Shown here: one piece after another, positions 2,945 through 11,110 of the stretch
Layout of the letters: the number at the start of each line of letters is the position of its first letter
Position numbering within the stretch: the first letter of the stretch is position 1
DNA from: Gemmatimonadaceae bacterium
GTDB lineage: Bacteria > Gemmatimonadota > Gemmatimonadetes > Gemmatimonadales > Gemmatimonadaceae
Direction of reading: 5' to 3'
Assembly (NCBI GenBank): GCA_035606695.1
Contig: DATNEW010000026.1
Coordinates: 124,001-188,000, forward strand
Length of the DNA stretch: 64,000 bases
The notes under the pieces: generated by a model
Database searches by the model: none
What the model was told of the DNA's origin: nothing
The model's input: the letters and a program-made list of their open reading frames with translations, nothing else
Position numbers and translations under genes: made by a program

Positions 2945-3622
2945 TCACAAAGACTTCGCCCCAAACACGAACCCCACCCCCCGCCGCGCATCGATCGACA
3001 CCGTCGCCGACGCGTCCCGAAGCTTTCCGCGCAGGCGCGTGACGTTCACGTCCACCACGTTCGTGCCCGGGTCGAAGCTCCGCTCCAACACCTTGTCGAG
3101 CAGTTCCGTGCGCGACACGACTTCGCCCGCGTGCATCATGAAATGCTCGAGGAGCGAGAGCTCGCGCGGCGTGAGATGCAACGGCTTCCCCGCAACGAGC
3201 GCGGCTCGGCTCAGTCGGTTGAGCACGACGTTGCCGACGGACAGGTGCTCGGTGCGCTTGGCGCCGCCGCGGCGAACGAGCGCGCGCACGCGTGCCGAGA
3301 ATTCGTCGAACTTGATGGGCTTCGTGAGATAGTCGTCGGCTCCGGCGTCGAGCGCGAGCACCGTTGTCCCCGGGCTTGCCGACCCCGTGAGCATGAGGAT
3401 CGGCGTGTCGCGCTGCTCGCGTCGCAGCGATTGGATCACCGAGATGCCGTTGCCGTCGGGAAGATTGAAATCGAGGATGATGAGGTCGTAGTCGGTGACG
3501 AGCGCCTGCACGCGCCCCGCCTCGGCCGTGTCCATCACGTCCACGACGAACCCCTCTTCCTTTAAAAGCGTGGAGACGATGTCGGCCATCGTCGGGTCGT
3601 CGTCGACGACCAGGGCACGCAT
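2945..3622 (-). CDS. OmpR/PhoB-type response regulator
   Basis: This 225-residue protein has an N-terminal receiver domain with the acidic pocket Asp7-Asp9, phosphoacceptor Asp51 (LILDFNLPDG context), Thr79 and Lys101 (LTKP). A C-terminal winged-helix DNA-binding domain follows (LTPRELSLLEHFM ... VDVNVTRLRGKL). I chose the ATG at 3622 because it starts directly at the receiver core MRALVVDDD; the longer frame to 3766 adds a low-quality N-terminus. No histidine kinase gene is adjacent. It is transcribed divergently from the surface-subunit operon that starts at 3793, so it is a natural candidate regulator of that operon (inference). Its cognate kinase is unknown. Confidence 0.92.
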   Translation of the reverse strand: MRALVVDDDPTMADIVSTLLKEEGFVVDVMDTAEAGRVQALVTDYDLIILDFNLPDGNGISVIQSLRREQRDTPILMLTGSASPGTTVLALDAGADDYLTKPIKFDEFSARVRALVRRGGAKRTEHLSVGNVVLNRLSRAALVAGKPLHLTPRELSLLEHFMMHAGEVVSRTELLDKVLERSFDPGTNVVDVNVTRLRGKLRDASATVSIDARRGVGFVFGAKSL

Positions 3623-3792: not shown

Positions 3793-4278
3793 ATGAAAGT
3801 AACCCGAATCATCGCCGCGGCCGCCGTGCTCGGCGTCACCAGCGCCGCCACGTCCTTCGCGCAGTCGGCGACCCAGACCGTGACGTTTCAGGTCGATGCC
3901 ATCAACCAGATCGCCGTGAGCGGCAGCCCGTCGCTCGGCATCACGACCGCGACGGCCGGCAGCGCGCCGACGACCGTGACGTCCTCCGGCGCCACGTGGT
4001 CGGTCACGACCAACCAGTCGAACGCCAAGGTGATGGCGAGCATCACCACGGCCATGCCGACGGGCCTGACGCTTTCCGCGACACTCGCCGCGCCGTCCGG
4101 CGCGACCAGCTCGGGCGCGAAGCCGCTCAGCACGACGGCGGTCGACGTCGTCACCGGCATCTCGAAGCTCAACGCGGCCGGTCTGGCGTTGACGTACTCG
4201 CTCGATGCGACGGCCGCGGCCGGCGTCGTGACCTCGGCGTCGCGCGTCGTGACGTACACGATCACCGGCGGCGCGTGA
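3793..4278 (+). CDS. Secreted pilin/coat-like beta-protein, subunit 1
   Basis: This 161-residue protein begins with a clear Sec signal peptide ending near ATSFAQS. The mature part is rich in Thr, Ser, Ala and Val with alternating beta-strand character and no cysteine. The ATG at 3793 has GAGG 8 bp upstream; the frame extends to 3715 but without a signal sequence. It is paralogous to the next gene: both carry SGSP, MP.G.TL, DV.TGI, TYSL/TYTL and AAGVV at matching spacings. Size, beta character and a downstream PapD-like protein suggest a fimbrial or spore-coat-U-like structural subunit exported by a chaperone pathway. That role is inferred, and I recognise no named family with certainty. Confidence 0.8.
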   Translation: MKVTRIIAAAAVLGVTSAATSFAQSATQTVTFQVDAINQIAVSGSPSLGITTATAGSAPTTVTSSGATWSVTTNQSNAKVMASITTAMPTGLTLSATLAAPSGATSSGAKPLSTTAVDVVTGISKLNAAGLALTYSLDATAAAGVVTSASRVVTYTITGGA

Positions 4279-4281
4279 CCC

Positions 4282-4752
4282 GTGCGTAGGGTGCGTAGCG
4301 GTTTGGTGGCATTGCTGTTTCCGCTGTCTCTGCTGTTTCTGGTGGGCCGGCACGCGGGCGCGCAGTTCGCGACGCTTCGCGTGTCGGGTTCCCCCGCCAC
4401 GATGCAGGTGCAGGGCGCCGCCGCCGGTTCCATGGCGTTGCCGGTGGTCGAGAGCAGCACCACGTATACGTTCGCGAACATCGGCGGCACCAATTCCAGA
4501 AAGATCGTGGCGCAGCTCAATGCGCCGATGCCGGCCGGGGTGACCCTCGCCGTCACGTTCGACGCGCCGTCGAACGCGGTGCGCATTCCGAACGTCGTGC
4601 TCGACGCGACGCCTCGCGACGTGCTGACCGGCATCGACTTCTCGCTCGGCTCCAGTGGCACTATCACGTACACGTTGTCGGCGACACCCGCCGCCGGCGT
4701 CGTTCCCAAACAGTCTCGCACGGTCACGCTGACGATCGTCAGCGCGCCTTGA
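4282..4752 (+). CDS. Secreted pilin/coat-like beta-protein, subunit 2 (paralogue of the preceding gene)
   Basis: This 156-residue protein starts with GTG at 4282, 3 bp after the upstream stop codon. It has a strong signal peptide (hydrophobic run LVALLFPLSLLFLVG, cleavage near HAGAQ). The mature domain aligns with subunit 1 through SGSPATMQVQG, ANIGGTNSRKI, MPAGVTLAVTF, DVLTGIDFSLGS and TPAAGVVPKQSRTVTLTIV. Tandem duplication followed by divergence is the simplest explanation. The pair could form a major and a minor or tip subunit of a surface fibre (inference). It is tightly coupled to the neighbours on both sides, with the next gene starting 12 bp downstream. Confidence 0.8.
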   Translation: MRRVRSGLVALLFPLSLLFLVGRHAGAQFATLRVSGSPATMQVQGAAAGSMALPVVESSTTYTFANIGGTNSRKIVAQLNAPMPAGVTLAVTFDAPSNAVRIPNVVLDATPRDVLTGIDFSLGSSGTITYTLSATPAAGVVPKQSRTVTLTIVSAP

Positions 4753-4764
4753 GGATTCCATAAA

Positions 4765-5565
4765 ATGCGTCGTTCGTTGTTTCGCGTCTTGGCCTTCGCT
4801 TCGGTCGCCGTACTGCCCGTGTCGGTTCGCGCGCAGATCGTCGTGCTGAGCAACACCGTCGAGGAGCGCATCGCCGCGCCCGGCGAACGCTATACGAGCA
4901 CGATCATCATCGTGAATCCGTCGACCGAGCCGCAGACCGCGCGGATCTATCAGACGGATTATCAGTTCGCGGCCGACGGCACCGGGCAGTTCAACGATCC
5001 AGGCACGACCCTGCGCTCGAACGCCGGTTGGGTGACGCCGCAGACGACGCAGATCGTCGTACCGGCGAATGGCCGAGTGGCGGTGCCGTACACCGTGGTG
5101 GTGCCGAAGACGGATTCGCTCAAGGGCACGTACTGGAGCGCGATCATGGTCGAAGGCCAGACCGCGCAGCCCGGCAAGAGCGGCGCGAAGCCGACCGTGG
5201 AGCTGGGGTCCGTGATGCGCTACGCGATTCAGGTCGCCACGCACATTCAGATGAGCGGCACGCGCGCCGTGAAGTTCGTGGATCCCGGCGTCGTGAAGAC
5301 GACCGACGGGACGGCGACGTTCGACGTCGACGTGCTCGACAACGGCGATCGGGGGTATCGTCCCACGCTCTGGGTCGAGATCTACGACGCGAACGGCGTG
5401 TTGCAGGCGAAGGCGAAGCAGACGCGCGGATTGTTGTATCCCGGTTCGTCGATTCGCCAGCACTTCGTGCTCGGCAAGCTGACGCCGGGCACGTACAAGG
5501 CGATGCTGTTCGCGGATACGGGTGACGAAGCCGTGATCGCCGCGCAGTACGACGTCAAGTATTAA
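4765..5565 (+). CDS. Periplasmic PapD-like chaperone (two Ig-like domains)
   Basis: This 266-residue protein has a signal peptide (cleavage near VSVRAQ) followed by two predicted Ig-like beta-sandwich domains. The N-terminal domain has the pattern of pilus-chaperone and DUF916-like folds: PGERYTSTIIIVNPS, W..P..T.IVVPANGRVAVPYTV and GTYWSAIMVE. The second domain (about residues 165-266) includes DNGDRGYRPTLWVEIYDANG and PGTYKAMLFADTGDEA. Chaperones of this kind hold secreted subunits in the periplasm and deliver them to an outer-membrane usher. Here it sits between two small secreted beta-proteins and a large usher-like protein. Identification rests on pattern and context rather than on conserved Arg/Lys anchor residues, which I could not assign. 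Confidence 0.65.
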   Translation: MRRSLFRVLAFASVAVLPVSVRAQIVVLSNTVEERIAAPGERYTSTIIIVNPSTEPQTARIYQTDYQFAADGTGQFNDPGTTLRSNAGWVTPQTTQIVVPANGRVAVPYTVVVPKTDSLKGTYWSAIMVEGQTAQPGKSGAKPTVELGSVMRYAIQVATHIQMSGTRAVKFVDPGVVKTTDGTATFDVDVLDNGDRGYRPTLWVEIYDANGVLQAKAKQTRGLLYPGSSIRQHFVLGKLTPGTYKAMLFADTGDEAVIAAQYDVKY

Positions 5566-5579
5566 GAAGTACTAATTCA

Positions 5580-8282
5580 ATGAAACTGTTGCCGGTGTTC
5601 GTGACGATGACGGGGATGGCCTTCGCGGCCATCCCCGCCTTCGCGCAGGCGCCGGCAGCGTCTTCGCTCTCGATCGTTGCGCCCCGCCGCGACACCATCG
5701 TGATCGACTCCAGCTCGGCGGCGACGGCGGTGTTCCGCCTGCACAACGCGTCGAACGACAGCGTTACCGTAACGCCCGAGCTCGTGCTGCCGCGCGGCTG
5801 GGAGCCGTTGATGCGCCCGGCGACGGTGCATCTCTCGGCGAGCGGCACCGATCTCTGGCTCGCCGGCGTGCAAGCGCCGCGCACGACCGTCGCGGGCACG
5901 TACGTCGTGTGCGCGACGGTTTCGTCGAATGGCAAGACGGTCTCTGATTCAGTGATCGTTCGCGTCGACGAAGTGCGCGCCATCGAGCTCATCGCGCTCG
6001 ATGCGCCAGGATGGATTCTCTCGGGCGCCGCGTACGAGGCACGCTTTCAGGTGCGCAACCGCGGCAATGTCACGACGAACGTTGCGCTGTCGGCCAACTC
6101 GAGCCGCGGCGTACGCGCGACGGTCAGCGTTCCGGTGGTCTCGCTCGCGCCGGGCGAACGCAGCGTGGTGAACGTGCGCATGAACGCCTCCACGGTTCGG
6201 GGTAAGGCGCAGGACGATCTGCTCGAGCTGGTCGCTGAAGATCAACATGATTCGCGCGTGCGCGTCGCGGCGACGTCGCGTACGACGATGGTCCCGAAGA
6301 GCGGCGGCATGAGCGACAACCTGGCGACCATTCCGTCGACGTTGTCGATTCGCGCGGCACCGACGGGCAGCGGTGTCTCGCCGGCGACGATTGCCGGCAA
6401 AGGGTTGCTCCCCGGAACCAAGACGATGATCGACTATGCCGCGTACGTTCCGGCGAAAGGCCAGTCGGTGTTCAACGACCGTGACGAATACCGTCTCTCG
6501 CTCGAGCGCGAGAATCTGTCGGCACACGTGGGCGACGCACTGTACGGCTACTCCGACCTGACGTCCGCGGGGTCGCTGGGCTTCGGCGCCGAAGTCGATG
6601 CGGCGCACGCGTTCCTTCACACGGGCGCCTACGTGGAGCGGTCGCGCTGGGCGACGAATGCACCCACCGAAGCCGGGCTCACCGTCGGCACACCGCGCGA
6701 GCTGCCGATGCACTTCGATCTGACGGCCGTCGGCCGCACGGGCGACGGCATGCCGACGGGGCTCTTCTCGCTCGCCGGCGGCGTGCCGGTCCCGCACGTC
6801 GGCACGCTCTCGGTCGAGACGGCAGCGAGCGACAACGCTGGGCATCCCGCCGTCGCCGAGCGGTCGCACCTCGTCGGCGCATTAGGAAAATTAAACTATG
6901 ATTTCCTACATCAACGTGCGAACGCGGCCTACGCCGGCCCGCAGCGCGGGGCCGGCGAGAATGATGCGTCGGTCTCGCTCGCGGCCACGCGCGACTTATC
7001 GTTTCACGGGTACGGCGCGTTGCACGACGGCGCCTCGCACGATCAGTTCGGCACCGGCGCCGTCGGCGCGACCTACGGCGCATGGGGGAGCGTCGACTAT
7101 GCCTGGACGTCGCGCAGCGACGTCACCGACTCGCTGCCGGTGAACGGCGCGCAGCGCGGCCTTCGCGCGACGACGACCCTGCCGCTCGGTCCCGCGTCGC
7201 TGTCGCTGGATGGAAGCGCGGGCAGCGCGACGGATGGCCCCATGCAGATATCGCGCAACTACCTCGGATGGGGCGGGTCGCTCAATCTCCGGCTGGCGAA
7301 CGGCGGTGCACTGTCTTTCTTCGGCGAGCACTCCGACGGCCGCACCCTCGGCGCCGACGGCCGCCCGACGAACAGCGGCGGCGCGGTTGGCATGTTCGCA
7401 CTGGGCGCGCTGCGACTCACCGTGACGTCGTCGGTGTCGTCGATGCGCCGGAGCCTCAGCGCCGACTCCGCGGCCGTGTGGTTCGGCCAGGGTGACGCCC
7501 GTCTCGAGTACCGCCTTCCGACCGAGACGACGATCGGATTGCGCGCGCACTACTGGATGAATCCCGCCGCGCAGGGTGTTCGCGCGAACAACGCGATGTA
7601 TCTCGAAGTCAAGCGGCCGCTCAGCCTTCCTGTTGGCCGGCAGCGTCGCCTGGGTCGTGTCGAAGGCCGCGTCACCGACGCCTCTGGCGCGCCGCTCTCG
7701 GGCGTTCTCGTTCACGTTGGCGACCAGATTGGAATCACCGATCACAAGGGCGAAGTGTCGATGTTCGGGCTTTCGTCCGGCACGCACGGCATCTCGCTGG
7801 ACGGCGCGGGCACCACGGCGCAGACGATGTTGACGGGCGACGCCGTCGTCACGGTGAACGGCGCGTCGGATCGTCCCGCGTCATTCGCGGTGTCGGTCGC
7901 TCGCGGCGCGCATTTGCGCGGGCAAATCAGCTTGCTCGATTTCGCGACGACCGGCGCTGCCTCGGGTGATTCGCTCATCCAGACCGGCACGCTCTCGAAC
8001 GTGACGGTCGCGCTGCTCGGCACCCGCGACACGTTGTATCAGACGAGCGACGACAAGGGCGCGATCAACTTCGGCGCGATTACCCCTGGCCGCTGGACGC
8101 TCGCGGTGCTTCCTGGCGCCGAAGTCCCGGACTTCCATGCGTTCCAGAACGAACGTGTCGACCTGGACCTCGCGCCGGGCACCACGCGCGACATCGAGCT
8201 GCGCGTGGTGCCGCGCAAGCGCGCCGTCACGCTCACGACGTCGGGAGGCACGCTCAAGGTGAAGAACCAGCAGGACAAGTAG
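5580..8282 (+). CDS. Large outer-membrane usher-like protein with NEW3-like, barrel-like and carboxypeptidase-regulatory regions
   Basis: This 900-residue secreted protein has a signal peptide ending near PAFAQA. Residues about 30-215 hold two beta-sandwich domains resembling NEW3-type repeats (ARFQVRNRGNVTTNVAL, SLAPGERSVVNVRM). Residues about 290-690 are a long series of alternating strands typical of an outer-membrane barrel (for example DEYRLSLERENLSAHVGD and LGFGAEVDAAHAFLHTGAYV). At about 692-760 is a carboxypeptidase-regulatory/transthyretin-like domain (VEGRVTDASGAPLSGVLVHV, TDHKGEVSMFGLSSGTH), followed by another beta domain and a charged tail. The order (periplasmic sandwich, barrel, small C-terminal sandwich) recalls fimbrial ushers, but I see no obvious FimD family motif. 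It follows the chaperone gene by 14 bp and probably acts as the outer-membrane exit or anchor. Confidence 0.6.
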   Translation: MKLLPVFVTMTGMAFAAIPAFAQAPAASSLSIVAPRRDTIVIDSSSAATAVFRLHNASNDSVTVTPELVLPRGWEPLMRPATVHLSASGTDLWLAGVQAPRTTVAGTYVVCATVSSNGKTVSDSVIVRVDEVRAIELIALDAPGWILSGAAYEARFQVRNRGNVTTNVALSANSSRGVRATVSVPVVSLAPGERSVVNVRMNASTVRGKAQDDLLELVAEDQHDSRVRVAATSRTTMVPKSGGMSDNLATIPSTLSIRAAPTGSGVSPATIAGKGLLPGTKTMIDYAAYVPAKGQSVFNDRDEYRLSLERENLSAHVGDALYGYSDLTSAGSLGFGAEVDAAHAFLHTGAYVERSRWATNAPTEAGLTVGTPRELPMHFDLTAVGRTGDGMPTGLFSLAGGVPVPHVGTLSVETAASDNAGHPAVAERSHLVGALGKLNYDFLHQRANAAYAGPQRGAGENDASVSLAATRDLSFHGYGALHDGASHDQFGTGAVGATYGAWGSVDYAWTSRSDVTDSLPVNGAQRGLRATTTLPLGPASLSLDGSAGSATDGPMQISRNYLGWGGSLNLRLANGGALSFFGEHSDGRTLGADGRPTNSGGAVGMFALGALRLTVTSSVSSMRRSLSADSAAVWFGQGDARLEYRLPTETTIGLRAHYWMNPAAQGVRANNAMYLEVKRPLSLPVGRQRRLGRVEGRVTDASGAPLSGVLVHVGDQIGITDHKGEVSMFGLSSGTHGISLDGAGTTAQTMLTGDAVVTVNGASDRPASFAVSVARGAHLRGQISLLDFATTGAASGDSLIQTGTLSNVTVALLGTRDTLYQTSDDKGAINFGAITPGRWTLAVLPGAEVPDFHAFQNERVDLDLAPGTTRDIELRVVPRKRAVTLTTSGGTLKVKNQQDK

Positions 8283-8291
8283 CGCTAGGCG

Positions 8292-8326
8292 AACGCGCCG
8301 CGTCCTCTTGCATTCGGGCGCGTTTT
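8292..8326 (+). terminator. Possible weak terminator hairpin
   Basis: AACGCGCC at 8292-8299 is the exact reverse complement of GGCGCGTT at 8317-8324, with a 17-nt loop and a run of only four T residues. It follows the usher-like gene by 10 bp and precedes the next co-directional gene by 17 bp. The large loop and short T run make it a weak candidate; it may only attenuate read-through. Confidence 0.35.
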
Positions 8327-8342
8327 GCGCATTGTCTAACGC

Positions 8343-9692
8343 ATGCGTCCTCCACCCCAGGTCGCGGTTTCGCTGCTGGCGTCGATGCTGGCGTTGGCTC
8401 CCGCCGCCGCCCAACGCGCTACACTCCACGGCGCCGTCTTCGACAGCATCTCGAACAAACCACTTGCCGGCGCGAAGGTCCAACTCGTCGCCGCCGACAC
8501 GGCGCTGCACGGAAAGCAGTTCACCGCGACGGCCGACTCCTCGGGACAATTCACGGTGCCCGACGTGCCGTTCGGCCACTACGACGCCGGCTTCTTTCAT
8601 CAAACGCTCGATACGCTTGGGCTGGAGCCGCGCGAGTTCGCCGTTACCGTCGCGCAACCCGAGCAGACCGTCGTTCTGTCGACGCCGTCGGGCCACGCAC
8701 TCCTGCGCGCGATGTGTCCATCCGATCCAACGGCCAATGCCGCGGTATTCGGTCAGATCCACGATGCCGACACCGAGCTGCCGCTGCCCGGTGCGTCCGC
8801 ACTCGTGAGTTGGCTCACCGTCGACCGCCGCACGAAGGAACCCGCACAGGCGCGCCTGCAAAGTGGGCCGGCCGATGAATCGGGTTCGTTCGTCATCTGT
8901 GGCATCGCGGCGGACACCGCGGTACGCGTGCGCGCGCTGAACAAGAGCGACTCGAGCGGAACGATCGGTGTCGAAGTACCGAGTGGAAGCGTGCGCCACG
9001 TCTCGATGTATGTGGGCCGAGCGGCGACCGCGCGCGTGACGGGTCACGTGCATGACGCGGGCGGACATCCCATCGCGGCGGCGCGCGTGCAGATTCTCGG
9101 GGCTACGCACGACACCGTGACGGATGCGGCCGGCGCGTTCGCGCTCGAGCGCGTGCCGATCGGATCTCGCTCGCTCGTCGTGCGCGGCGTTGGATTCGCA
9201 CCAGCCGAGCTGCCGATGCAATTGCTCTCCGGTCGAACCGACACCGTGAGCGTCACGCTCGAACGCGTCGCTGTCCTCTCACCGGTCGTTGCACGCGCGG
9301 CGGCCGAAGCACAGCGACGCACCGACGCGTTCGCGACGCATCGCCGAACCGGCGGGGGACAGTTTCTCGACCCGACCACCGGCCCGGTCCTTCACGTCGA
9401 TCCCGTCGCGCACATGATGCAAGGCTTGTCCAGCGTGTTCGTCGACAAGGACGGACGCCGCGGCGGTGAATGGGTGATCAAGCTCAACACGCTCAAGGGC
9501 AACTGCAGTCCACAGCTCGTCCTCAACGGCAAGCCGACCAAGCTGTTCTACGACGACATCGTGCGCATGATCGACTTCGACGATCTCGTCGGCATCGAGG
9601 TGTACACGCGCAGCTCGCAAGTTCCAGCCGATTACAATCTGCCGGCGTTTCTCGACTGCGGCGTCGTCGCGTTCTGGACGCGCTCGCGATGA
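8343..9692 (+). CDS. Secreted carboxypeptidase-regulatory protein ending in a TonB-plug-like domain, no barrel (copy 1)
   Basis: This 449-residue protein has a signal peptide ending near PAAAQR. It carries carboxypeptidase-regulatory-like domains at about residues 26-115 (LHGAVFDSISNKPLAGAKVQL), 130-225 and 235-315 (VTGHVHDAGGHPIAAARVQI ... VPIGSRSLVVRGVGFAP). The last 110 residues resemble a TonB-receptor plug: C.PQLVLNGKP, DDLVGIEVYTRSSQVPADY and CGVVAFWTRSR. The protein stops exactly where a receptor would begin its beta-barrel. It is paralogous to the next gene and overlaps it by 4 bp (ATGA). It lies 60 bp after the usher-like gene and may be transcribed with it. Role unknown; a periplasmic or surface adaptor is possible. 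Confidence 0.75.
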   Translation: MRPPPQVAVSLLASMLALAPAAAQRATLHGAVFDSISNKPLAGAKVQLVAADTALHGKQFTATADSSGQFTVPDVPFGHYDAGFFHQTLDTLGLEPREFAVTVAQPEQTVVLSTPSGHALLRAMCPSDPTANAAVFGQIHDADTELPLPGASALVSWLTVDRRTKEPAQARLQSGPADESGSFVICGIAADTAVRVRALNKSDSSGTIGVEVPSGSVRHVSMYVGRAATARVTGHVHDAGGHPIAAARVQILGATHDTVTDAAGAFALERVPIGSRSLVVRGVGFAPAELPMQLLSGRTDTVSVTLERVAVLSPVVARAAAEAQRRTDAFATHRRTGGGQFLDPTTGPVLHVDPVAHMMQGLSSVFVDKDGRRGGEWVIKLNTLKGNCSPQLVLNGKPTKLFYDDIVRMIDFDDLVGIEVYTRSSQVPADYNLPAFLDCGVVAFWTRSR

Positions 9693-11110
9693 CCGCGCGC
9701 GTGCTGATCTTCGCGCTGCTCGCGGCGACGTTTGCGTTTCGCGCGCCGCCGCACCCACCGCCGCACGCACCGCCGGCGCCTCAGCGCGCCGCGATCAAAG
9801 GCATCGTCTGGGACAGCATCAGCGAGCGGCCCCTCGTGGGCGCGAACGTACAACTGGTTGCGGCCGACGCGAAACTCGGCAACCGGCGCTTCACGGCGAC
9901 CACCGATTCCATCGGGCGATTCGCCATCCCCAACGTGCCAAGCGGGCGCTACGTCGCCGGCTTCTATCATCCGCTCCTGGACTCCCTCGGCGCACAGCTG
10001 TCGGACGTCACGATCACCATCACCGATCGCATTCATACGATCGCGCTGAGCACGCCCGGCCCGCTCACCATTCTCCGTCGCGCGTGTGGCGACCCGAATG
10101 CGCGCACCGCCATCATCGGCCATGTGCACGATGCCGAGAATGAGATGCCGCTCGCGAAGGTGCTGGTGTTCGCGACGTGGCCCAACGTGGACGAGACAAG
10201 GAGCTCGTTCAAGGCGAGCACGCAAGGCGACAGCGTGCGCACCGACGACTCGGGCGCATTCATCGTGTGCGACGTACCGATGCATACCGAGGTTCGCGTC
10301 CGCGCGGTGAGCGGCGCCGACTCGAGCGGCGCGATCGCCGTCGAGGTCGCGCCATTTACATTCCGGCATCTGTCGTTGTACGTGCTCACGGATCATCGTG
10401 ATGCGGCAGCGGATTCGACGCCGACGCGACTCACCGGCCGCGTACGCGACGAGAATGGCCGGCCCGTTGCCGCGGCGCGCATCCTCGTGCTCGGCACGAG
10501 GAGCGATACGGTGACCGATGAAGACGGAACGTTCCGGCTCACCCGTCTCGTTCCGGGCTCGCGCGCTGTGAACGTGCGCGCCGTCGGCTTCGCGCCGACC
10601 GAAGACGAGGTGCAACTGCTCGCCGGCCGCACGAACATTGCGGACTTCACGCTGCATCGGGTCACTCGGCTCGACGGCATGACGGTTCGCGCAGCCGTCG
10701 AGTTGCAGCGTCGGCAGGATGCATTCGAGGAGAACCGCCGCACGGGCGCCGGATACTTTGCGTCGCCGGAGAAGACCCTGTCGACGACCGACATTGTTGC
10801 GGAGCTCGTGCGCGAGCTGCCCGGAATGCAGGTCGAGTATCAACATGCGGAATGGTCGGTCATCATGAATCGCCCCGCGTCCGAGAACCGATTCGGCGCG
10901 CCGGTCGGCACCTGTTCGCCGACGATGATCCTGAACGGCAAGCCGACGCCGGACTCGTTCGACGACATCGTGAAGGACACGCGGCGCGACGAGTTGGTCG
11001 GCGTCGAGATGTATCCGCGCGAATCGATGGCGCCGGCGAAATACGCGCGGAACATGAACCCGCTCAAGGAGTGCGGGCTCATCGCCGTGTGGACGCGGCC
11101 GAAGTTTTGA
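9689..11110 (+). CDS. Secreted carboxypeptidase-regulatory protein ending in a TonB-plug-like domain, no barrel (copy 2)
   Basis: This 473-residue paralogue of the preceding gene has the same domain order. The signal peptide is followed by a Pro/His-rich spacer (PPHPPPHAPPAP). Regulatory-like domains follow: IKGIVWDSISERPLVGANVQL, a middle one and LTGRVRDENGRPVAAARILV. A plug-like end contains LVRELPGMQVEY, CSPTMILNGKPTPDSFDDIV, LVGVEMYPRESMAPAKY and ECGLIAVWTRPKF. The ATG at 9689 overlaps the upstream stop codon (ATGA), which shows translational coupling and fixes the start despite the open upstream frame. The LPG motif and the GI.EV/CG.I..WT ending are characteristic of receptor plugs. No barrel follows: the gene ends 9 bp from the convergent peptidase gene. 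Confidence 0.75.
   Translation: MTARVLIFALLAATFAFRAPPHPPPHAPPAPQRAAIKGIVWDSISERPLVGANVQLVAADAKLGNRRFTATTDSIGRFAIPNVPSGRYVAGFYHPLLDSLGAQLSDVTITITDRIHTIALSTPGPLTILRRACGDPNARTAIIGHVHDAENEMPLAKVLVFATWPNVDETRSSFKASTQGDSVRTDDSGAFIVCDVPMHTEVRVRAVSGADSSGAIAVEVAPFTFRHLSLYVLTDHRDAAADSTPTRLTGRVRDENGRPVAAARILVLGTRSDTVTDEDGTFRLTRLVPGSRAVNVRAVGFAPTEDEVQLLAGRTNIADFTLHRVTRLDGMTVRAAVELQRRQDAFEENRRTGAGYFASPEKTLSTTDIVAELVRELPGMQVEYQHAEWSVIMNRPASENRFGAPVGTCSPTMILNGKPTPDSFDDIVKDTRRDELVGVEMYPRESMAPAKYARNMNPLKECGLIAVWTRPKF

Follow-up and report, generated by a model that had tools for sequence, protein, structure and literature searches.

In a 64,000-nucleotide stretch of a genome whose nearest named relatives are Gemmatimonadaceae (contig DATNEW010000026.1, positions 124,001 to 188,000; hereafter the window), four genes at positions 3793-8282 encode two small secreted proteins, a chaperone-like protein with two immunoglobulin (Ig)-like domains and a 900-residue protein predicted to form an outer-membrane β-barrel. 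We consider it highly probable that this locus works like a chaperone-usher system, and that it is a surface-fibre operon of a class without a name in the libraries we searched. The sequence relationships fit a distant class of chaperone-usher pathway better than a convergent one, and the anatomy of the gene products suggests that they form fibres by donor-strand exchange. The features of the locus, with the evidence for each, are as follows.

3793-4278 (+): subunit 1, 161 aa, secreted, pilin-like, with an N-terminal extension strand (open reading frame (ORF); AlphaFold2 (AF2) model, mean predicted local distance difference test score (pLDDT) 94.8; structural matches)
3862-3903 (+): N-terminal extension of mature subunit 1, QSATQTVTFQVDAI, candidate donor strand (unpaired in the AF2 model; the donor role is putative)
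4282-4752 (+): subunit 2, 156 aa, secreted paralogue of subunit 1 without the extension, proposed tip (first-secreted) subunit (ORF; homology to subunit 1)
4765-5565 (+): putative periplasmic chaperone-like protein, 266 aa, two Ig-like domains (ORF; WxLIP profile match; link to PapD through intermediates)
5580-8282 (+): usher-like outer-membrane protein, 900 aa (AF2 model, pLDDT 89.2, predicted template modelling score (pTM) 0.64; Foldseek; VIA-align)
5661-6299 (+): two N-terminal Ig/NEW3-like domains of the usher-like protein, residues 28-240 (AF2 strands; sub-threshold NPCBM_assoc match; hhalign to the chaperone family)
6321-7640 (+): predicted β-barrel of the usher-like protein, about 26 strands, residues 248-687 (DSSP on the AF2 model; loop lengths; VIA-align ranges)
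7653-8219 (+): two C-terminal β-sandwich domains of the usher-like protein, approximately residues 692-880 (AF2; CarboxypepD_reg; hhalign to Escherichia coli ushers)

A conserved four-gene operon

The four ORFs lie on one strand and are separated by gaps of only 3, 12 and 14 nt. Their G+C content at codon position 3 is 0.84-0.92, as is usual for the genes of this genome. The order subunit 1, subunit 2, chaperone and usher-like gene is kept in related genomes and in many phyla. Among 92 non-redundant loci found with the chaperone profile, an usher-like ORF lay directly 3' of the chaperone in 88 (median gap, 4.5 nt), and at least two subunit paralogues were located upstream in 75. It is clear that the four ORFs are real genes of a conserved operon, and the locus is not peculiar to the window's genome.

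The initial annotation had described four tightly spaced genes in the order of a fimbrial operon, two of them coding for paralogous small secreted proteins, and had noted the lack of classical pilin, PapD or FimD motifs; all of this was borne out. Signal peptides are visible on subunits 1 and 2, and the two families are paralogues (hhalign probability 99.7%, E 2.6e-25). When the four proteins were scanned against the libraries, no product scored over any Pfam or NCBIfam cut-off; the sole sub-threshold match of note placed CarboxypepD_reg (E 4.9e-6) close to the C-terminal end of the 900-residue protein. The subunits gave only noise against Pfam, and their profiles had no match among the PDB sequences. 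A comparison of the subunits with an E. coli pilin profile was set aside, as it aligned mainly the signal peptide.

We also noticed that subunit 1, subunit 2 and the chaperone (3793-5565) share one reading frame with only TGA stops between them. This is probably due to chance, the frames in the other loci looking random.

The subunits and the chaperone-like protein

Mature subunit 1 was modelled with AF2 from 91 sequences. In the model (pLDDT 94.8), residues 1-14 belong to no strand and seven strands lie between residues 15 and 135. The first six Foldseek ranks were all occupied by chaperone-usher pilins, among them CfaB (first), CS17 and another chaperone-usher pilus rod, with weak E-values (2.4e-3 to 4.3e-2). 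Similarly, a large majority of the 50 rows of the VIA-align structural comparison were chaperone-usher pilins or pilin domains of adhesins. CfaB was the best of these with Z 8.2 (110 residues, root-mean-square deviation (rmsd) 13.0 Å), a value barely above what is commonly seen with models that have no clear match; the pilin domain of CfaE reached Z 7.5 (114 residues, 3.0 Å) and EcpA Z 7.3 (109 residues, 3.1 Å). The Z-scores are not decisive by themselves, and the argument lies in the consistency of the list of matches. The alternative (alpha, CFA/I-like) pili, represented by CfaB, CooA and EcpA, thus supply the best structural matches of subunit 1, although sequence similarity to them was undetected and the window's usher-like protein and chaperone differ from theirs. 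Subunits folding as complete Ig domains, with no need of a donor strand, would have contradicted the initial annotation. For subunit 1 this was not the outcome: the model appears as an Ig-like, pilin-type domain that is one strand short and has a free, unpaired N-terminal extension, and most of the structures it matches are chaperone-usher pilins.

The main other group in the VIA-align list was that of archaeal cannula proteins, whose Z-scores (7.6-7.9; cannula-type subunits at 7.9, 7.7 and 7.6) are just under that of CfaB. They bring to mind self-assembling matrix fibres or tubes of the TasA or cannula kind, in which the chaperone would be a strand-complementing starter and the barrel a passive pore, and one study describes TasA/TapA as operating by strand complementation (PMC10151520). 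Chaperone-usher pilins nevertheless make up most of the structural matches, and the locus has the gene set of an usher operon, with a barrel protein whose domains are laid out accordingly; in our opinion self-assembly of this kind is extremely improbable.

The two subunit families of the proposed chaperone-usher operon differ in their N-termini. The distance from the hydrophobic region of the signal peptide to strand A has a median of 23 residues (17-32) in the subunit 1 family and of 9 residues (5-15) in the subunit 2 family, with no overlap, and the extension was absent from all 41 subunit 2 rows, which were drawn from loci outside Bacteroidota. In the Bacteroidota loci both upstream subunits carry the extension, and the locus ends, 3' of the usher, with a subunit-2-like member that lacks the strand. 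Tip subunits such as FimH have no N-terminal extension. Subunit 2, having no N-terminal strand, is what would be expected of a tip subunit, and we propose this position for it. For the single-subunit loci L159, L160, L162 and L164, all from one Gemmatimonadota family, the stretch read contained no subunit except one that bears the extension, and the strand-less partner is therefore not universal in the stretches seen.

By sequence, the chaperone is closest to WxLIP of Gram-positive bacteria. A profile of 86 rows, searched against the PDB sequences, matched WxLIP of Enterococcus faecium (9i25_C, E 1.2e-6; 9i1y_A, E 1.3e-6), with the next best match at 0.45; an earlier profile of seven rows had found no match there. 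In addition, weak matches to WxLIP_PGBD were present in 20 of the 86 members and to WxLIP_HBD in six. As these WxLIP entries are the only significant matches of the family among PDB sequences, and as WxLIP, encoded in WxL gene clusters (DUF916-DUF3324), is predicted to complete the WxL sandwich by inserting a strand into its small partner (PMC10599100), the locus could be seen as a counterpart of the Gram-positive WxL surface complex. The two-Ig protein would then be a scaffold that stays on the small proteins, the barrel would serve as outer-membrane anchor or exporter, and no polymer would be made. We regard this as unlikely. The subunits show no detected relation to WxL, either by sequence or among the structural matches listed, and the small proteins of the window have no WxL family match. 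The C-terminal transmembrane helix of WxLIP (PMC10599100) is absent from the window's chaperone, which ends in ...AAQYDVKY without a hydrophobic helix. Moreover, the WxL clusters have no usher or outer membrane, whereas here the usher-like gene almost always adjoins that of the chaperone.

For a chaperone of the chaperone-usher type, a relationship to PapD would be expected, and judging from sequence PapD is reached only through intermediates. The window chaperone has no PapD_N match. Several other chaperones from Gemmatimonadota matched both sides, among them L179 with E 2.3e-13 to the window family and 3.6e-7 to the E. coli PapD-like profile, and L196 with 3.5e-14 and 2e-7. These two are over the PapD_N cut-off (34.5 and 34.6 bits vs 23), and in each case both profile matches fall in the N-domain. 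The genes adjoining the L179 and L196 chaperones code for relatives of the 900-residue protein (E 3.4e-27 and 6.2e-30, respectively). We take the match of these intermediates to both families as a sign of probable distant homology to the PapD-like chaperones. The initial annotation had left the choice between a distant and a convergent type of chaperone-usher export, and it is the former that fits better; convergence was judged less likely in view of the same intermediates.

R152 is invariant in all 86 rows of the chaperone alignment and lies within an alternating hydrophobic stretch, ELGSVMRYAIQVATHI. Our guess from the sequence pattern is that this stretch provides the donor strand and the carboxylate anchor.

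The 900-residue usher-like protein

The AF2 model of the 900-residue protein was built from 73 sequences (mean pLDDT 89.2, pTM 0.64). The predicted layout is a signal peptide, two Ig-like domains (residues 28-240), about 26 barrel strands (248-687) and two β-sandwiches (692-880; their AF2 strands span 692-878). A large outer-membrane β-barrel, one of the hallmarks of a chaperone-usher system, is therefore present as a prediction. It is of membrane size, as the initial annotation had supposed, with somewhat more strands than the 24 suggested there. The longest loop joining consecutive barrel strands has only 14 residues, so that the predicted barrel has no inserted plug.

When the whole chain was compared with the PDB by Foldseek, FimD occupied ranks 1-5 (best 3rfz_E, E 2e-13, 858 columns) and PapC ranks 8 and 10. 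In VIA-align with the barrel only, FimD gave Z 17.0 (331 residues, 5.0 Å) and PapC Z 16.8 (334 residues, 5.4 Å). The N-terminal Ig pair aligned with the chaperone family over 190 columns (hhalign probability 90.7%, E 1.3e-6), a similarity to which generic Ig resemblance may contribute. The C-terminal domains were compared with those of eight E. coli K-12 ushers, and residues 711-847 aligned on FimD 729-850 (hhalign probability 92.5%, E 5e-7), although such a match is common to many unrelated transthyretin-like domains and is not specific for ushers. The initial annotation had placed a carboxypeptidase-regulatory domain near the C-terminus, and the sub-threshold CarboxypepD_reg match agrees with this; its suggestion that this domain replaces the C-terminal domains of ushers was not upheld, as the region aligns with them.

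Besides this lack of specificity at the C-terminus and the modest subunit scores given above, several results speak against a chaperone-usher system. The profile of the chaperone family, compared directly with that of ten E. coli PapD-like chaperones, gave no significant similarity (probability 6%). The 900-residue protein has no match to PF00577 (Usher), and in 59 related genomes PF00577 was over the cut-off in none, the E. coli control being positive. The whole-chain Foldseek alignments have a low template modelling score (0.24) and a high rmsd. The predicted barrel, with its approximately 26 strands and no plug insertion, departs from that of known ushers. Finally, in the barrel-only comparison MtrB scored above FimD (Z 19.8, 406 residues, 5.0 Å), and TonB receptors and porins came after PapC.

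The last result gives weight to an MtrB-like or porin-like conduit for some other cargo, with the small proteins as accessories and the likeness to ushers due to barrel size and common Ig-like domains. The top score of MtrB, the TonB-dependent receptors and porins close behind, and the promiscuity of the C-terminal domain family are all in line with such a conduit. Barrel geometry does not single out ushers in these models; the whole chain together with the operon does. FimD holds the first five whole-chain ranks, 88 of the 92 loci encode a chaperone next to the barrel protein, nearly all have pilin-like subunits upstream, and the operon showed no gene for a multihaem cytochrome. We therefore consider a conduit of this type very unlikely and retain the chaperone-usher interpretation.

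Classical ushers (FimD, PapC) have a 24-stranded barrel, a plug, an N-terminal domain and two C-terminal domains. The 900-residue protein genuinely departs from them in three respects: its N-terminus has two Ig/NEW3-like domains in the place of the usher-type N-terminal chaperone-binding domain, a plug insertion is missing, and the barrel is of a different size. The protein fails several of the defining tests of the PF00577 usher family, and we do not assign it to that family.

The operon as a whole resembles those of the classical, alternative and archaic chaperone-usher pathways (FimC/FimD, PapD/PapC, CfaA/CfaC, CsuC/CsuD, EcpB/EcpC) in combining subunits, a two-Ig chaperone and a large barrel; in its usher-like protein with two C-terminal β-sandwiches; and in its pilin-like subunits with a free N-terminal strand, one subunit being strand-less. 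It differs from them in the usher-like protein without a PF00577 match, with two Ig domains for the usher N-terminal domain and a plug-less barrel of about 26 strands instead of 24, and in a chaperone that is not directly recognisable as PapD-like. Even the known chaperone-usher classes share little sequence homology (PMC4654587).

Distribution and proposed assembly

The chaperone profile, run against 84,980 species genomes, yielded 80 loci in many phyla. In a sample of 395 Gemmatimonadota genomes, 65 had a chaperone match at E <= 0.001, and 22 of the matches were strong family members (E below 1e-70). Tallied from record and tree names, the carriers belong to roughly 20 diderm phyla, plus Deinococcota; the tally includes many metagenome bins, and phyla with a single record could be binning errors. 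The carriers include Bacteroidota, Verrucomicrobiota, Gemmatimonadota, Synergistota and diderm Bacillota and, among cultured bacteria, Thiocapsa, Draconibacterium, Maribellus, Orenia and Deinococcus deserti. This range is wider than that of the archaic class, the largest of the known ones, which occurs in proteobacteria, Cyanobacteria and Deinococcus-Thermus, whereas the classical and alternative systems are confined to beta- and gamma-proteobacteria (PMC4654587). In the chaperone tree, Gemmatimonadota formed one clade (support 100/99), and Bacteroidota (with one Chlorobiota record) and Chromatiaceae were kept together; on account of this grouping, a mainly vertical and old inheritance fits.

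Another operon of this type is present in the window's genome (locus L025, on G000:C1), and the five subunit-like places found in the 5.9 Mb of that genome all fall within the two operons. A third extension-bearing subunit is encoded on the opposite strand, 3' of this second operon (L025 10739-11374 (-), i.e. G000:C1:20744-21208), and a third, divergent pair of chaperone and usher-like protein (812 aa) lies elsewhere in the genome (L167 6073-9347, G000:C27). In locus L029, the usher-like frame at 5174-9391 (-) continues without a stop into an apparent isocitrate dehydrogenase (1405 aa), by gene fusion or a lost stop. On plasmid 2 of D. deserti (NC_012529.1 87735-91583; L199 7426-11274) the operon has a single upstream small gene; its products are annotated as a hypothetical protein, a FimB/Mfa2 family fimbrial subunit (the chaperone) and a carboxypeptidase regulatory-like protein. 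The FimB/Mfa2 label is probably a misannotation.

Two chaperone-usher-like loci of Gemmatimonadota, one of them with a DUF4402-like subunit, encode relatives of the chaperone and of the usher-like protein in matching order. A subunit of L034 is near DUF4402, and the usher-like proteins are further removed (E-values against the window family, 1e-6 to 1e-10). The usher-like proteins of these loci (L034 2798-7919 and L036 4253-7746) are also without PF00577, and the two loci possibly represent a further unnamed class.

Next to the operon, on the other strand, lies a regulatory gene:

2945-3622 (-): divergent response regulator of OmpR type, which in Gemmatimonadaceae likely regulates the operon (orthologues adjoin the same operon; the role is proposed from position)

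Orthologues 61-71% identical to it stand beside the operon in L026, L028, L071, L072 and L076, which suggests that expression of the operon depends on a signal. The stretch read contained no recognisable kinase gene. On the 3' side, two successive genes at window positions 8343-9692 and 9680-11110 (+) encode proteins in which CarboxypepD_reg domains are repeated and the C-terminal stretch is TonB-plug-like, without a barrel. These genes (8343-11110) were considered as members of the operon and rejected, since CarboxypepD_reg proteins were not seen 3' of the operon in the relatives listed.

From the domain layout and from the presence or absence of the N-terminal strand, we propose the following assembly. 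Subunits 1 and 2 would enter the periplasm by Sec, where the two-Ig chaperone would bind each unfinished subunit and lend it a strand. The chaperone-subunit complexes could then be received by the N-terminal Ig pair of the 900-residue protein. Strand-less subunit 2 would come first and form the tip, after which each subunit 1 in turn would use its N-terminal strand, TVTFQV, to fill the groove of the preceding subunit and displace the chaperone. The fibre would leave through the β-barrel, and the gate, being something other than an inserted plug, might perhaps be formed by the C-terminal sandwiches.

Taking these results together, we lean slightly towards a broader proposal, namely that the operon represents a fourth, ancient class of chaperone-usher systems, spread over about 20 diderm phyla and overlooked for want of family models, with a plug-less usher that receives subunits on two chaperone-like Ig domains and a chaperone that links the Gram-negative pilus chaperones with the Gram-positive WxL system. 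We found no description of the operon in open papers on Gemmatimonadota or on multi-phylum ushers (subscription journals were mostly, and bioRxiv wholly, outside the scope of the search), and its novelty is meant relative to these papers and the libraries searched.

With this operon, pilus-like assembly machinery would reach many more diderm phyla, in which the genes involved are now called hypothetical or carboxypeptidase regulatory-like, and it seems that a widespread mode of surface-fibre construction has been overlooked so far. If the usher is indeed plug-less, it would become possible to test how such a pore is gated, whether the plug was a later addition, and whether the chaperone-usher and WxL systems had a shared ancestor.

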